NCBI GenBank assembly: GCA_013426805.1
Contig: JACDZG010000047.1
Span: forward strand, 1 to 52,064
Length of the DNA: 52,064 nucleotides
Reading direction: 5' to 3'
Source: Chromatiaceae bacterium
GTDB taxonomy: Bacteria > Pseudomonadota > Gammaproteobacteria > Chromatiales > Chromatiaceae
Shown piece after piece: positions 44,898 through 51,558 of this stretch (position 1 is the stretch's first letter; the number at the start of each line of letters is the position of its first letter). Under the pieces are notes generated by a model. It searched no databases. It saw nothing but the letters and a program-made list of their open reading frames with translations, and had not been told where the DNA came from. Made by a program: the position numbers and the translations under genes.

Positions 44898-44989
44898 TTG
44901 CCTGTCTTGCCGATCTTCCGTCACGCGTCCCGGCAATGATAAGGATTATCCGGCAATCGCCTTAGTCCCCGCCGCAGCCACCGCCATCA

Positions 44990-45210
44990 CCATCCCCGCC
45001 ATCCCCCGAAGCGGAGTCACCGAACCCATCGGTGGTGCCGTCGAAATCGGTACTCTCCTGACCCACCGCTTCGGCCACCTGCCGGCCTGGGTCGCCGCGC
45101 GTGTCGCCGAGGCCCAAATCCCGCAGTTCGCCGCCTGGCTCGACGGTTTCTTCGACGCCGACGCCCTGACCGATCTGCTCGGCCCCGCGACCGAGCCTCC
45201 CGCGCACTGA
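44990..45210 (+). pseudogene. DUF4351 domain remnant
   Basis: An open frame without start codon ends at 45210. LLTHRFGHLPAWVAARVAEAQIPQFAAWLDGFFDADALTDLLG is the C-terminal half of a DUF4351 domain, normally at the end of Rpn/PD-(D/E)XK transposase-like proteins. The N-terminal catalytic part is missing. Confidence 0.6.
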
Positions 45211-45408: not shown

Positions 45409-45598
45409 GTCGGTCGGGGTTTGACTGGCACCGCTGAATGTAGTCCAGGCCGTTGCGTACAAAGTCTTGCACGCTCGCCGAAATCGATCGCCCAACGGTA
45501 TGATGCACAGTCGGCGTAGTCGGAGGAAGGCTGAACGGCTACGCCGTCACAGGGGCAGAATAACCGTAATCTCCGTTTGGAGTGCGAAACCCAGGGAG

Positions 45599-47125
45599 AT
45601 GTCCGTGCGCACTATACCCGAGTCCTTCCTGGTCGCCTTCTCCTTCGCAGGAGAGCAGCGAGCATTGGTTCACAGTATTGCCGAGGCTGTGGAATCGCGA
45701 CTGGGGGCGGGGACCGTCTTTTACGACGATTGGTTCGAGCACTGGCTTGCCGGTGCCGACGCCGACCTCAAGCTTCAGAGCGTCTACGGCGAGCGCTGCA
45801 CCCTCGCGGTCGTGTGTGTTTCCGCGCGCTACGGCGGCAAAGCCTGGACCCAGGCGGAGCATCGTGCCATTCGGGCGCGGCAGATGCGCGCGGACCTGTC
45901 GGCCCGTGCGCTCGACCGAGAGGCGATCCTGCCGATCCGTGTCGGCGATGGCGATGTGCCCGGAATTCTGTTCAACGCCATCGTTCCTGATGTTTGTCAG
46001 CGTTCCCCCGCTGAATCGGCCGATCTCATCATCGGGCGGTTACGGCTCTTGCGCCCCGAGCTCGAGGTATATTCCGACGCTATGGTTCCGGCTCAGGAAT
46101 CCGACGGTACGGAATCGCTACCGGGCGATGAACCGCCGGACAGCGATACTGAGACAGCCGGTAGCGATGACCACTGCATTGTCCGGCCCGCCGATCGGGC
46201 AGTGCGGGCATTGGCGTCACGCTGCGGCCTGACGCTGGTCATCAAAGGACCCGAGGAGATGGGGAAGAGCCGGTTGCTGACCGTGTTCATTTCTCATTGC
46301 CAAAGGCAGGGCAAAGCCTGCGCCTGCATCGACTTCTCGGCGTTCTCCAGAGCAGACCTATCGGAGTATTCGACGTTCCTTTCCTTGTTTGCGGCGACAG
46401 TGAAATCCGAACTTGGCCAGGATCTCGGTGAACCGCCGGTCATCGGGTCCCAGTGGGAAATGAACCTGTTCATTGAGAGATCGATACTTGCGCCATTGTC
46501 GAGCGGTTTGGCCCTCGGACTCGACGAGGTTGACCGGATTCTCGGGCGCCCTTACCAGGCGGATTTTTTTAGCATGTTACGCAGTTGGCACAATGCGCGC
46601 ACCCCGCTGAAGCCGGTGTGGCGGAAGCTGGACATGGCCATGGTCATTTCCACCGAGCCGTATCTGCTGATCGATGACGACGATCGCTCGCCGTTCAACG
46701 TCGGTGAGATCATCGAGATCGGTCCCTTGACGATCGCCGAGTGTCTGGCGATCAATCGGGGTTACGGGGACGTCCTGACGAGCGAGGAAAGCAGACAACT
46801 CTGGTCACTCCTTGGCGGTCAGCCCGCGCTGACACAAACGGCGTTCAAGCGGCTGACGGCACCGGACCGGATGGCATTCGAGTCCCTGATGACACGTGCC
46901 GCCGAGCCGCACGGGCCCTTCGGCTCACATTTGCGCAAGCTGTCGGCCAAGCTCCACAAGGCGCCGGAGCTGAAAGCCGCGCTGCGTCAGATCATTGATG
47001 ATGGCACCCGGCCGGAGCAGTCGTTGTGCGACCGGCTCGCCGGCGCCGGTCTGGTGCGATGGGAGGGTGGGCGGGTCATGCCCGCAAACCGCTTGTACGC
47101 CTCTTACTTCGGGAGCGTCGTCTAA
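45599..47125 (+). CDS. TIR-domain protein with AAA-type ATPase domain
   Basis: 508 residues. Residues 8-150 are a TIR-like domain: SFLVAFSFAGEQRALVHSIAEAVE, TVFYDDWFEHWLAGADADLKLQSVY, VVCVSARYGGKAWTQAEHRAIRAR and ILPIRVGDGDVPG; the conserved Glu87 of the W-x-x-x-E segment, the NADase catalytic position in TIR enzymes, is kept. After an acidic linker (160-192) comes an ATPase domain: Walker A GPEEMGKS (Lys223), Walker B LALGLDEVDRI, and a winged-helix-like C-terminus ending ANRLYASYFG. The ATPase looks related to the AAA-like domain at the start of the next gene. The ATG at 45599 directly abuts AGGGAG; a GTG at 45605 has better spacing. 2 bp separate it from the next gene. Confidence 0.8.
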   Translation: MSVRTIPESFLVAFSFAGEQRALVHSIAEAVESRLGAGTVFYDDWFEHWLAGADADLKLQSVYGERCTLAVVCVSARYGGKAWTQAEHRAIRARQMRADLSARALDREAILPIRVGDGDVPGILFNAIVPDVCQRSPAESADLIIGRLRLLRPELEVYSDAMVPAQESDGTESLPGDEPPDSDTETAGSDDHCIVRPADRAVRALASRCGLTLVIKGPEEMGKSRLLTVFISHCQRQGKACACIDFSAFSRADLSEYSTFLSLFAATVKSELGQDLGEPPVIGSQWEMNLFIERSILAPLSSGLALGLDEVDRILGRPYQADFFSMLRSWHNARTPLKPVWRKLDMAMVISTEPYLLIDDDDRSPFNVGEIIEIGPLTIAECLAINRGYGDVLTSEESRQLWSLLGGQPALTQTAFKRLTAPDRMAFESLMTRAAEPHGPFGSHLRKLSAKLHKAPELKAALRQIIDDGTRPEQSLCDRLAGAGLVRWEGGRVMPANRLYASYFGSVV

Positions 47126-47127
47126 CC

Positions 47128-50100
47128 ATGCCCGGGTATCGCGGCGAGCTGCAGGTCGGCGGTACGCTGGACCCGACACGCCATCTCTATATCGAACGCC
47201 GCGATGCCGAAGACGAGGTCTTTGAACTCCTTGCGCGGGGGGAGTACTGCAACATCCTTTGTCCACGTCAGGTCGGCAAGTCCAGCCTGATGATCAAGAC
47301 CGCCCTGCGCCTCGGGCGCGAGGGCGTGCGGGTCGTTACCATCGACGTTGGGGGTGAGCTCGGGTCGCCTCAGAACGCCACGGAATGGTACCGGGGACTG
47401 CTCGGCAAACTGAGCGCTGACTTGTGCCTGGAACTCGATGTGGATCATTGGTGGGAGCACGACGGGCAGGGGACTGCCAACCAGCGGCTCCGGCAGTTCT
47501 TCCGAGAGCGTGTTTGCCTGGCCGAGCTGCCACCCTGCGTCGTCTTTCTCGACGAGATCGACAGCACCCTTAAGCTCGACTACACCGATGACTTCTTTAC
47601 CGCGATCCGGTCGATGTACAACGAGCGATCGGTGTGGCCGGGCTATCGTACCCTGACCTTCTGTCTGATCGGTGTGGCCACTGCCAACGAGTTGATCAAG
47701 AATCCGCGCACCACGTCTTACAACGTCGGCAGGACCATTGTGCTCCGCGACTTCGACGTGGAAGCGGACGACCTGTCACCGCTCCAGGACGCCTTGGACG
47801 ATACCGGAGGGGGCGGAAAAGAACTGGTTGCGGCGGTATTGTACTGGACCGGCGGCCACCCCTATCTGACGCTTCGTTTGTGCCAGGAGATCATCGCCCG
47901 GCGCCTGGTCTGCGCAGAACAGCTCGGCACGCTGATCGCGACAGAGTTCGGCAATTTCGAGAGCACGCGCTCCGACGTGCATTTTCAGCAGATCGAGCGG
48001 TTCCTGGGAAACCGAATGTCGGACCGGCTTGCTGCGTTCGATCTGTATGAGCGGATACTGAGGGGCGAGCGGGTCCGCGACGAGGCGGCAGCGACGCACA
48101 TCCAACTCAAGCTGTCCGGGCTGGTCGCGCGTGATCGCGATGGCTGCCTGGTGGTACGGAACCGGATCTACCGGCAGGTCTTCAATCTCCAATGGGTGCG
48201 TGGCAGCAGACCGGATCGGACCCTACGGCAACTGCGGCGGCTCGCGTACACGGCGACGGCGTTGCTGGTCCTGATCGTGGGCGGAGCGAGTACTTGGCTC
48301 GCGTATGATCTGCTGGTCTTGGAGCCACCGCGCCGGCTCACGGCGGACCTGCTGCAACGGCTGGCGTCCGCCCATTCCGAGGAGGACGCCTTTGAGCTTT
48401 ATCGGTATCTGTCCGGACTGGAGCCACATCCGGAGTTGATGCGGTATCCGCTGCCTATTCAGAGGACATTGACCGCTTCCGGACATGCCGCGGCCATCGG
48501 TTATCAGCGAGTGCTGTTTGGCAATGGCGGTGAGCCGTCTTGGGAAGCCATCGACGAATCCTGGTTTGAGAAATGGCTGCGGCTGAGGACCTCCCGTCCG
48601 GCAGAGATCAGTCCGGAGAAGGTCGAGCACGTCAATGACGTTGTCAGTGAGATGGAAGGCCTGGGCATGTATGGCGCCTGCGCGGTGATGGCTCGGAGGA
48701 TAGTAGAGATTGCGGAAGGGGCACTGGGGGCCGAGCATCCGGCTACCCTCACGGGCATCAACAACCTCACCTTTCTGTACCAGGCCCAGGGCCGCTACGC
48801 GGACGCCGAGCCGCTCTACCGCCGGGCGCTGAAGGACCGCGAGCGGGTGCTGGGGGCCGAGCATCCTGATACCCTCCAAAGCGTCAACAACCTCGCCGGA
48901 CTGTACCAGGCCCAGGGCCGCTACGGGGAGGCCGAGCCGCTCTGGCGCCGGGCGTTGGAGACCAGCGAGCGGGTGCTGGGGGCCGAGCATCCGCAAACCC
49001 TTACGAGCCTCAACAACCTGGCCGCTCTGTACGAAGCCCAAGGCCGCTACGGGGAGGCCGAACCGCTCTACCGCCGAGCGCTAGGGGATCGCGAGCGGGT
49101 GCTGGGGGCCGAGCATCCGCAGACCCTCACGACCCTCACGAACCTGGCCGAACTGTACCAGGCCCAGGGCCGCTATGGGGAGGCCGAGCCGCTCTTCCGC
49201 CGGGCGCTGGCGGCCCGAGAAAAGGTGCTGGGGGCCGAGCGTCCGGATACCCTCCAGAGCGTCAACAACCTCGCCTCCCTTTACTACTCGCAAGGCCGCT
49301 ACGTAGAGGCAGAACCGCTCTTACGGCGCTCGCTGGCAGGAACCGAGCGAGCGCTCGGAGCCGAGCATCCGCAGACCCTAACGAGCCTCAACAACTTGGC
49401 CGGACTGTACAAAGCCCAGGGCCGCTATGGGGAGGCCGAGCCGCTGTACCGCCGGGCGCTCGCGACCCGCGAGCAGGTGCTGGGGGCCGAGCATCCGCAG
49501 ACCCTCACGAGCCTCAACAACTTGGCCGGACTGTACCAGGTTCAGGGCCGCTACGCGGAGGCCGAGCCGCTCTACCGCCGGGCGCTGGCGGCCCGCGAAC
49601 GGGGGCTGGGGCCCGAGCATCCGGATACCCTCACGAGCCTCAACGACCTGGCCTATCTGTACGACTCCCAGGGCCGCTATGGGGAAGCCGAGCCGCTGTA
49701 CCGCCGGACGCTCGAGTCCAGCGAGCGGGTACTCGGATCAGAGCATCCAGACACGATCAACGTCCAGTTGAACTTGGCCTTGAACCTGGTCAACCAGTCC
49801 AAACTCCCCGAGGCCATCCGCCAGTTCCGCTCCCTCGACGGCCGACTGCGCGGTTTCGTGGGCCTGCAACTTGCCACCACCGGCTCCGAGCAGGTGCGCC
49901 GCGACCGGGTGAACGCGGAGGCCCGGCTCCAGGATGCTGTCTACAGCTTCGCCCTGGCGCACCCTGACAGCGAGGCCCTGCCGCTCGCGGCCGACCTCCT
50001 GCTGCGCTGGAAGCGCCTGGCCGGCGAGGAGGAGGCCCTGGTCGCGTGCTTGGCCCGCACCAGTCAGGACCCGCGGGTGAAGGATCTGGCCAGCCGGCTG

Positions 50101-51558
50101 GCCCAGTCGCGGACGGATCTCAGCCGGCTGGTCAACCTGCCCAAGCCAGACCCCAAAGCGATCACCGATGCGCGTACCGCCCTGGAGCGCCTGGAGGTGG
50201 AACTGGCGACCCTCAACCGGACCTTCGGCGGCCAGCGGGCGGTTCGCGCGCTCGACTGGGAGTCGGTGCGCGACGCCCTGCCGCGGGGCTCGGCCCTGCT
50301 GGAGCTGCGGGCCTTCCGGCCATACGACTTCCAGACGCGCCAATGGGGCGACCCCCGTTGGCTTGCCCTTCTGATCCCGGCCGCCCCGGGCGAGGGCCCG
50401 CCCCTGCGGGTCTTCGACCTGGGTCCGGCCGCCGCGCTCGATCCCCTGCTCGCGCGCCTGCGCGCCGACGAGGCGGCGGCCGAGCCGCTGGTCTATCAGG
50501 CGCTCTTCGGCCCGCTCGACGCGGCGATCAAGGACTATGGGACCCTCTTCATCGCCCCGGACGGCGTCCTAGACCTGGTCGCTTTCGCCCGGCTGCGGCC
50601 GCAGCTCCCGGACGGTCGTTACTGGGTGCAGCAGCAGTGGTTGCGGGAACTGCGCACCGGGCGCGACCTGCTGGCCCCCCCGCGGGCCCGGGAGGCGGCC
50701 GGAATCTTGGTCCTGGGAGAAGTGGATTACGACCACTTCCCGGCCGGCGAGCCGGCAAAGGCGCGCCCTGCGGGTTCGTCCCCGGACCCGCTCGGGCCGG
50801 TGCTGCCGGGGCCGGCGGACGAGCCCTTGATCACCATTGACACCCAACTGTGCGCCGAGCACCGCAGCTTCGGCCCCCTCGCCGCTACCGGCCCCGAGGC
50901 ACGCCAAATCGGCCGCTTCTATTGGGACAAGGACGGTCGCGAGGCCGTGGTCCTGATGGGCCTAGACGCCAACGAGCGCCGTCTGAAGTCGCTGGCCGAG
51001 CCGCCCCGGGCGCTGCATCTCGCTACTTCCGGTTTCTTCCCGACCGAGCAGTCGGACGCGCCCGGGGGCGGCTGGGGCCGCCCCATGGTCCTGTCCGGCA
51101 TCGCGCTGGCCGGCGCCAACCGGGGGCTCGAAGGTCAGCTTGGCCCGGACGGCGAGGACGGCATCCTCTACGCCTTGGAGGTCCTGGACCTTAATCTGGA
51201 AGGCACCGAGCTGGTCACTCTCTCCGGCGGCAATATGGGCATGGGCGCGGTGGACCTATCCGAAGGGGTTTACGGATTGGTACGCGCATTCCAGATCGCC
51301 GGCGCCCGCAATGTGCTGATGACCCTGGGGTGTCTCACCGACGTGCTGGCCCGCGAATTCATGGAAGACTTCTATCGCAGTTGGTTCGACCCGCAGGGCC
51401 ATCGCTCGCCCGCCGAGGCGCTGCGCAAGACCCAGCTCGACTGGATCGGGGGCAGCGACCCGCGCAAACGCGACCCGAAATACTGGGCGCCCTTCGTGCT
51501 GGTGGAGCGGGGCCGAGACCCCGGGTCCAGCCCGACCGTTGCGCCCCCTGGCCATTGA
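47128..51558 (+). CDS. AAA-like ATPase, TM helix, TPR array and degenerate CHAT domain
   Basis: 1476 residues. Residues 15-330: AAA-like ATPase with PRQVGKSS (Lys51), VVFLDEIDS (Asp142-Glu143) and sensor-like WTGGHPYLTLRLCQ. A winged-helix-like segment follows, then a single membrane helix (372-397), a helical spacer, and eight exact-length 42-residue TPR-like repeats (534-869) of the GAEHPxTLxSLNNLAxLYxxQGRYxEAEPLYRRAL type. After a coiled stretch, residues about 1040-1470 form a CHAT domain. The CHAT His (LATHG) is Ser1301 (LATSGFF) and the Cys (SACxTG) is Gly1368 (SGGNMG), so the caspase-like site is lost while GVYGLVRAFQIAGARNVLMTL and KYWAPFVLV are kept. It sits directly after the TIR-ATPase gene. 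Confidence 0.85.
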   Translation: MPGYRGELQVGGTLDPTRHLYIERRDAEDEVFELLARGEYCNILCPRQVGKSSLMIKTALRLGREGVRVVTIDVGGELGSPQNATEWYRGLLGKLSADLCLELDVDHWWEHDGQGTANQRLRQFFRERVCLAELPPCVVFLDEIDSTLKLDYTDDFFTAIRSMYNERSVWPGYRTLTFCLIGVATANELIKNPRTTSYNVGRTIVLRDFDVEADDLSPLQDALDDTGGGGKELVAAVLYWTGGHPYLTLRLCQEIIARRLVCAEQLGTLIATEFGNFESTRSDVHFQQIERFLGNRMSDRLAAFDLYERILRGERVRDEAAATHIQLKLSGLVARDRDGCLVVRNRIYRQVFNLQWVRGSRPDRTLRQLRRLAYTATALLVLIVGGASTWLAYDLLVLEPPRRLTADLLQRLASAHSEEDAFELYRYLSGLEPHPELMRYPLPIQRTLTASGHAAAIGYQRVLFGNGGEPSWEAIDESWFEKWLRLRTSRPAEISPEKVEHVNDVVSEMEGLGMYGACAVMARRIVEIAEGALGAEHPATLTGINNLTFLYQAQGRYADAEPLYRRALKDRERVLGAEHPDTLQSVNNLAGLYQAQGRYGEAEPLWRRALETSERVLGAEHPQTLTSLNNLAALYEAQGRYGEAEPLYRRALGDRERVLGAEHPQTLTTLTNLAELYQAQGRYGEAEPLFRRALAAREKVLGAERPDTLQSVNNLASLYYSQGRYVEAEPLLRRSLAGTERALGAEHPQTLTSLNNLAGLYKAQGRYGEAEPLYRRALATREQVLGAEHPQTLTSLNNLAGLYQVQGRYAEAEPLYRRALAARERGLGPEHPDTLTSLNDLAYLYDSQGRYGEAEPLYRRTLESSERVLGSEHPDTINVQLNLALNLVNQSKLPEAIRQFRSLDGRLRGFVGLQLATTGSEQVRRDRVNAEARLQDAVYSFALAHPDSEALPLAADLLLRWKRLAGEEEALVACLARTSQDPRVKDLASRLAQSRTDLSRLVNLPKPDPKAITDARTALERLEVELATLNRTFGGQRAVRALDWESVRDALPRGSALLELRAFRPYDFQTRQWGDPRWLALLIPAAPGEGPPLRVFDLGPAAALDPLLARLRADEAAAEPLVYQALFGPLDAAIKDYGTLFIAPDGVLDLVAFARLRPQLPDGRYWVQQQWLRELRTGRDLLAPPRAREAAGILVLGEVDYDHFPAGEPAKARPAGSSPDPLGPVLPGPADEPLITIDTQLCAEHRSFGPLAATGPEARQIGRFYWDKDGREAVVLMGLDANERRLKSLAEPPRALHLATSGFFPTEQSDAPGGGWGRPMVLSGIALAGANRGLEGQLGPDGEDGILYALEVLDLNLEGTELVTLSGGNMGMGAVDLSEGVYGLVRAFQIAGARNVLMTLGCLTDVLAREFMEDFYRSWFDPQGHRSPAEALRKTQLDWIGGSDPRKRDPKYWAPFVLVERGRDPGSSPTVAPPGH
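48727..49734 (+). repeat. Eight tandem 126-bp coding repeats
   Basis: Eight consecutive 126-bp units encode the 42-residue TPR-like repeats with no length variation. A ninth, decayed unit follows (GSEHPDTINVQLNLA). High DNA identity between several units (GGGGCCGAGCATCC and CAGGGCCGCTA blocks) suggests recent duplication or gene conversion. Confidence 0.9.

Follow-up and report, generated by a model that had tools for sequence, protein, structure and literature searches.

A conserved pair of STAND-like ATPase genes in a Chromatiaceae bacterium, with a TIR domain on one protein and a degenerate CHAT domain on the other

We analyzed a 52,064-nucleotide stretch of DNA from a Chromatiaceae bacterium (contig JACDZG010000047.1, assembly GCA_013426805.1; hereafter the window), which contains two adjacent genes, here called A and B. 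Gene A encodes a TIR domain joined to an ATPase of the AAA_35 family (PF14516), and gene B encodes a second AAA_35 ATPase followed by a predicted membrane helix, a TPR array and a CHAT domain that lacks its catalytic residues. The two ATPases represent a pair that is conserved in several bacterial phyla. We put the probability at roughly 55% that they form a split, two-subunit NLR-like receptor, in which the pseudo-CHAT region of B would act as a sensor outside the cytosol and the TIR domain of A would provide the output.

Gene A (45599..47125, forward strand), the proposed effector subunit, encodes 508 amino acids from an ATG at 45599; a GTG at 45605 is better spaced from the AGGGAG at 45593-45598 and, judged by sequence, may be the true start. 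Its TIR domain (residues 12-121, 45632..45961) scored 27.7 bits against the Pfam TIR_2 cut-off of 28 and reached 29 bits when the N-terminal segment was scanned alone, and its A-type AAA_35 domain (residues 198-504, 46190..47110) scored 215.4 bits (gathering score 27; 1.2e-63). Gene B (47128..51558, same strand), the proposed sensor subunit, encodes 1476 amino acids and begins with an ATG at 47128, two bases past the TAA of gene A; both open reading frames (ORFs) are intact and uninterrupted. It contains a B-type AAA_35 domain at residues 14-353 (47167..48186; 85.9 bits against the same gathering score, 3.1e-24), which was also recognized by alignment and predicted fold, and one hydrophobic segment predicted as a transmembrane helix at residues 379-397 (48262..48318), within a helix covering 364-414 in the model. 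These are followed by eight regular 42-residue TPR units, whose starts range from residue 533 to 827, with a ninth, degenerate unit at 869 (48724..49857; eight TPR_10 stretches in Pfam), and by a CHAT domain at residues 1122-1459 (50491..51504; 172.2 bits, cut-off 24, 2.1e-50). This gene layout and domain order had been proposed in a preliminary description of the DNA, and ORF, Pfam and hydropathy analyses agree with it. In the 7.6 Mb genome, genes A and B were the only two strong PF14516 matches (three more scored 22-36 bits) and they are neighbors; thus, their adjacency is not due to chance.

We further examined relatives of the pair at the best 80 of 298 loci by similarity to window A, among the matches listed, a set that is not a random sample; separate profiles for A-type and B-type ATPases were used to find neighbors. 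A B-type gene was present beside A in 67 of these loci, with the order A then B in 57, B then A in 5, divergent genes in 4 and convergent genes in 1. No B was seen in the other 13, six of which had less than 4 kb of contig downstream. Eight named phyla were represented (Cyanobacteriota 48, Chloroflexota 10, Pseudomonadota 7, Armatimonadota 5, Verrucomicrobiota 3, Myxococcota 2, Nitrospirota 1 and Acidobacteriota 1), together with three unplaced genomes. Adjacency was also evident in eight whole genomes containing a locus, where 47 of 59 A matches lay within 5 kb of a B, as did 50 of 66 B matches of an A (125 of 144 matches; the 19 weakest, below 40 bits, were left out). Within the order to which the window belongs, all 13 matches above 80 bits were located in A-B clusters, in 4 of 210 genomes, and among eight genomes of its genus the pair occurred in this genome alone. 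When 398 genomes were sampled more widely across the phylum, 4 others had weaker B-profile matches (82-165 bits) and no A partner seen; therefore, distant unpaired relatives exist. No relative of gene A was detected in viral contigs and phage records.

Phylogenetic analyses placed the A-type ATPases in one clade and the B-type ATPases in another (support of 100 each in the Shimodaira-Hasegawa-like approximate likelihood ratio test). A and B distances were correlated over 64 loci (r = 0.926), which fits transfer of the pair as a unit and also fits shared host history. Single ORFs joining both ATPases were found in L226:1676-4564 (A-B) and L179:1395-4115 (B-A), and in L227 and L228 tandem B-type ATPases in one ORF adjoined one A gene. 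Because of these fusions, and of the two B ATPases beside A in L227 and L228, a physical partnership of A and B can be argued. The Thiosymbion locus (L050) had one A gene and two B genes and, like L227 and L228, hints at A:B ratios other than 1:1. The preliminary description had treated the two ATPases as belonging together and had named co-occurrence across genomes as a check; the conserved neighborhood, co-inheritance and natural fusions support it on both counts.

Multiple alignments included the window, 72 of the 80 A loci and 53 of the 67 B loci (we chose to exclude incomplete rows together with some others). The P-loop GK was conserved in all 73 A and all 54 B sequences and the Walker B Asp in 72 of 73 and 54 of 54, respectively, and both window proteins retained the two motifs. 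In window A the GKS (P-loop at 46247-46270, forward strand) and DE are kept, and near-invariant residues flanking the P-loop are altered (E219, E220, R225). Because positions 219, 220 and 225 depart from the family, ATP binding may be weaker in window A than in window B, whose P-loop and Walker B match the rest of the B family. Erosion of the B-side ATPase had been suspected from a P-loop regular expression and was ruled out by alignment. Both proteins also have a GxP in invariant columns (G407/P409 in A, G243/P245 in B), which, lying ahead of a winged helix, we take to be the STAND/AP-ATPase motif.

Structure prediction gave confident models of both ATPases, with a predicted local distance difference test score mostly above 90 for A and a mean of 90.6 for the ATPase and helix of B; the TIR part of the gene A model was poor. 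The models matched AAA+ cores with a winged helix, the archaeal structures 2qen and 2fna ranking first, followed by CED-4 (best Z of 18.2 for A and 15.8 for B), the plant TIR-NLRs RPP1, WRR4A and Roq1, and then ORC; Avs3, Avs4 and Avs5 were also among the matches. Both ATPases are thus predicted to adopt STAND/NLR-like folds, that of A being NB-ARC/CED-4-like. In the TIR domain, Glu87 (codon 45857-45859) is the putative catalytic residue. It was assigned by spacing, since MAFFT misplaced the window TIR: it lies 12 residues past a Ser, and in a by-eye comparison the Glu of other A-type TIRs is spaced alike. Glu87 was also part of a weak alignment of this domain to 7uxr (E 1.8). The SEMV pattern typical of most A-type TIRs is absent from the window TIR.

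The two proteins vary at opposite ends. In A (window plus 79 of the 80 loci), the variable end is N-terminal and contained TIR_2 in 49, CHAT in 17 and kinase domains in 16 of 80 segments; rarer domains included EAD7, BTAD and HTH_3 (2 each), and trypsin and Trans_reg_C (1 each). In B (window plus 62 of the 67 loci; 25 of 184 families covered), the variable end is C-terminal and contained WD40 repeats in 42 of 63 proteins, with single cases of LRR, FGE-sulfatase, CHASE2, kinase, GUN4, PAS-GAF, TPR and amidase domains. By its domain content, the A end therefore looks effector-like and the B end sensor-like across the sampled family, which fits the earlier assignment of the sensor to the TPR/CHAT protein and of the effector to the TIR protein. 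Of 67 B proteins, 56 had a hydrophobic segment after the ATPase. In the 51 proteins compared for flanking charge, the N-terminal flank was the more positive in 38 and the C-terminal flank in 6, and 7 were tied (sign test, 9e-7, the proteins not being independent). The flanks of the window helix have 4 and 3 positive charges. The helix of B is thus probably oriented N-in/C-out, with TPR-CHAT outside, a location that also suits the CHASE2 and peptidoglycan amidase domains found at other B C-termini. Two plasmid loci had unusual compositions. In L046 (Candidatus Chlorohelix) the gene order is reversed and A consists of a kinase, AAA_35 and a LuxR-type HTH, a DNA-binding output. In L045:4524-11413 (Nostoc ATCC 53789) a CU044_2847-family gene lies immediately upstream of a trypsin-TIR-AAA_35 gene, whose partner B ends in WD40 repeats and an N-acetylmuramoyl-alanine amidase.

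The CHAT domain of window B has lost both catalytic residues: the His of the HLATHG motif is replaced by Ser1301 (codon 51028-51030) and the Cys of LSAC by Gly1368 (codon 51229-51231). The genome has 22 CHAT matches; 18 of the 21 others were compared (C39, C109 and C212:78078 were not included), and the Cys was conserved in 18 of 18 and the His in all 17 that could be aligned. CHAT domains on the A side of the family likewise retained the Cys in 19 of 19 and the His in 18, the remaining one (L094) not being alignable. On the B side, the Cys was lost in three of four (window, L083 and L106) and the His in two (window and L083); for the Cys, the difference between the sides gave a Fisher p of 0.0023 over loci that are not independent. 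Loss is not a rule for B-side CHATs, as L175 showed. Since its His-Cys dyad is gone, the window CHAT is, as far as sequence can tell, catalytically dead and no effector, and a reading of CHAT as an effector is not supported for gene B. Searching the PDB by sequence with the CHAT region gave no match at E <= 1.

The degenerate domain is closely related to TPR-CHATs encoded elsewhere in this genome: it shares 71-79% identity with the two nearest ones, and over about 830-900 residues the C-terminal part of B shares 76-78% with two TPR-CHATs that retain the dyad. This part is a mosaic, the post-TPR region being nearer to L056 (87.8%) and the CHAT domain nearer to L055 (79.4%). Against 38 relatives, the C-terminal half of B matched in 6 genomes, its own included; the others were 52-66% identical, with the exception of G147, which was 85% identical over 154 residues. 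The ratio of nonsynonymous to synonymous substitution rates (dN/dS) to the nearer TPR-CHAT was 0.315, a pairwise value that cannot place constraint on B's own branch. Because values for active paralogue pairs span 0.24-0.59 and thus bracket it, the CHAT domain seems to have been retained for a role other than proteolysis. Homologous TPR-CHAT ORFs in a genome of the same genus had a signal-peptide-like start by hydropathy in L221 and L223 and not in L222; an outside position of the B TPR-CHAT is therefore plausible.

Taken as a receptor, the pair could work as follows. B would be an inner-membrane protein whose STAND ATPase faces the cytosol and whose TPR-CHAT part lies outside, where this dead relative of the cell's own TPR-CHATs could serve as a ligand- or partner-binding sensor. 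Engagement of the sensor would change the nucleotide state of the B ATPase, which would then co-assemble with the A ATPase in a mixed AAA+ ring or filament. The TIR domains of A would be clustered and would cleave NAD+ or generate a signaling nucleotide, with arrest or death of the cell as the outcome. The purpose that we favor for the pair, though unproven, is immunity.

Several observations weigh against this receptor or its immune role. ORC/Cdc6-type proteins scored nearly as high as CED-4 against the ATPase models, so that the fold by itself is no proof of an NLR. The 206-bp stretch at 49681..49886 (forward strand) in gene B is identical to a TPR-CHAT gene of contig C317, making gene conversion or a mis-join in assembly possible. 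The preliminary description had also looked to defense islands; no such setting was seen among 10 upstream ORFs scanned with Pfam and 10 window ORFs scanned with PADLOC, on a contig that stops about 500 bp past gene B, and the neighbors of the pair, where examined, were mostly housekeeping genes. In three cyanobacteria, the flanks of 20 pairs (118 of 129 eligible proteins, AAA_35 proteins and those above 900 amino acids having been removed) had no clear excess of defense genes over 20 arbitrary control stretches of the same genomes (118 of 194 proteins). PADLOC tallies, covering the 25 commonest of 64 flank and 52 control families, included up to 7 members matching Cas12f-type models and a Csx1 model near pairs and none among the control families listed; the Cas12f-type matches are presumably TnpB transposases. 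Matches to PD-T4-6 models numbered 2-3 members in the flanks and 3-4 in the control stretches, and those to mad6 numbered 2 and 4. The cyanobacterial flanks were rejected as defense-island evidence.

A developmental or environmental switch is a possible, if unlikely, alternative, in which the outside sensor would signal cell contact or stress on the envelope, with the TIR domain making a signaling nucleotide. It would account for the kinases among the A segments (16/80) and the few regulator-type domains there (BTAD 2, HTH_3 2, Trans_reg_C 1), the LuxR-type HTH of L046, the CHASE2 and PAS/GAF domains on the B side, the many copies in filamentous genomes (54 matches in one) and the housekeeping neighbors. 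It fits less well with the dominance of TIR (49/80) and CHAT (17/80) in A, where EAD7 and trypsin also occur, and with the cyanobacterial case, for which innate immunity was inferred from rapid propeller turnover, according to PMC9218822. We consider it very improbable that the pair is instead a regulated toxin, in which membrane-bound B would inhibit the TIR domain of A and loss or cleavage of B would free A, as with an antitoxin. The tight coupling of the genes (2 bp gap) and the common family of the two ATPases would suit such a device, but B has ATPase motifs of its own (GK in 54/54) and a large variable sensor, and single-ORF A-B fusions are hard to reconcile with release of an inhibitor.

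The identity with C317 raises a different doubt, namely that the fused CHAT of B is partly a product of assembly or gene conversion, the real B ending in an active TPR-CHAT such as that of C317 and the pseudo-CHAT belonging elsewhere. Besides the exact repeat, the genome's own TPR-CHAT ORFs L054, L056 and L057 run off the contig end within the TPR array, and the C-terminal part of B is the mosaic of L056-like and L055-like sequence described above. However, a repeat of 206 bp is normally bridged by read pairs, no genome match beyond short stretches exceeded 82% identity to the region (40 of 203 candidates scored), and fusions of a B-type AAA_35 to a Cys-less CHAT arose independently in L083 and L106; we regard this explanation as improbable. 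A decoy version of the paired receptor is similarly doubtful: the sensor STAND would have captured a copy of one of the cell's own TPR-CHATs, probably exported, whose active site was lost while the rest of its sequence remained under apparent purifying selection, as bait for inhibitors or hijackers of the real TPR-CHATs outside the cytosol, and the bait would fire the partner TIR-STAND inside. If so, the integrated-decoy logic of plant paired NLRs would act across a membrane.

If the split-receptor reading is correct, the pair would be a widespread bacterial receptor whose NLR switch is divided over two proteins, one of them spanning the membrane, so that an event outside could fire a TIR enzyme inside. 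The window adds a sensor derived from a protease family resident in the genome, through a copy that has lost its activity, in which decoy evolution can be tested, and it corrects a natural misreading, as the CHAT domain in such proteins need not be an effector. For the A and B proteins themselves, PADLOC reported no defense system and matched a generic TPR model alone, and NCBIfam gave no family above cut-off. A scan for promoters and terminators gave nothing exceeding shuffled sequences. Upstream of gene A, a short open stretch (44899-45210, forward strand) ends in ...AQIPQFAAWLDGFFDADALTDLLGP... and may be what remains of the C-terminal end of a DUF4351/Rpn-type protein, which it resembles.

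To our knowledge, the known bacterial NLR-like defense proteins (Avs, bNACHT) are single cytosolic chains. Plant TIR-NLRs (RPP1, WRR4A, Roq1) and CED-4 resemble the window pair in predicted fold and in the order TIR, AAA+ core and winged helix, whereas in the window the sensor is on a separate, membrane-anchored polypeptide and has no LRR. Paired plant NLRs have the output on one partner and a host-derived, non-functional bait domain on the other; the window pair, in contrast, is bacterial, its sensor is probably outside the cytosol and its decoy role is hypothetical. The nSTAND2 two-gene conflict system of PMC8195603 (Kaur 2021) also consists of two adjoining STAND genes and is predicted to form a hetero-multimer. 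It differs in having one eroded ATPase, whereas both window proteins keep P-loop and Walker B, and its GT4 or HEPN domain is not found in the window genes (TIR, AAA_35, TPR and CHAT alone by Pfam). That paper also names an Npun2340/2341 STAND family (MNS clade, Leipe 2004), which probably shares its ATPase family with the pair and whose name couples two gene numbers.

The closest counterpart is cyanobacterial. According to PMC9218822, the Npun_R6612 WRAP propeller forms the C-terminus of a STAND protein, and the genes for this protein and for a TIR-STAND protein are coupled. The same source describes the arrangement as conserved among further cyanobacteria, with the TIR protein in some cases bearing an N-terminal caspase-type domain as well, and cites a 2014 proposal of an immune role (Dunin-Horkawicz, Kopec and Lupas, J Mol Biol 426:1568). 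The two-gene layout is thus already known from Nostoc punctiforme and other cyanobacteria, and the view of the preliminary description that no named system has it is superseded by this TIR-STAND and STAND-WD40 pair. The full-text searches, which largely leave out subscription papers, listed no paper naming the AAA_35 pair, so that further prior work is possible. Like the TIR-STAND and STAND-WRAP operon, the window has adjacent co-directional TIR-STAND and STAND genes. L045 repeats the pattern as TIR-AAA_35 and AAA_35-WD40, the best PDB propeller matches of its B protein being 2ymu and the WRAP designs 7bie, 7bid, 7bif and 7big, and in L043 and L044 the A protein combines CHAT with TIR, as in the form with a caspase-type domain. 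Unlike that operon, the window is gammaproteobacterial, has TPR and a degenerate CHAT and no WD40 propeller, has a sensor related to the cell's own TPR-CHATs and has a TIR without SEMV. What is new here is the gammaproteobacterial version of the pair, whose proposed sensor consists of TPRs and a pseudo-CHAT.

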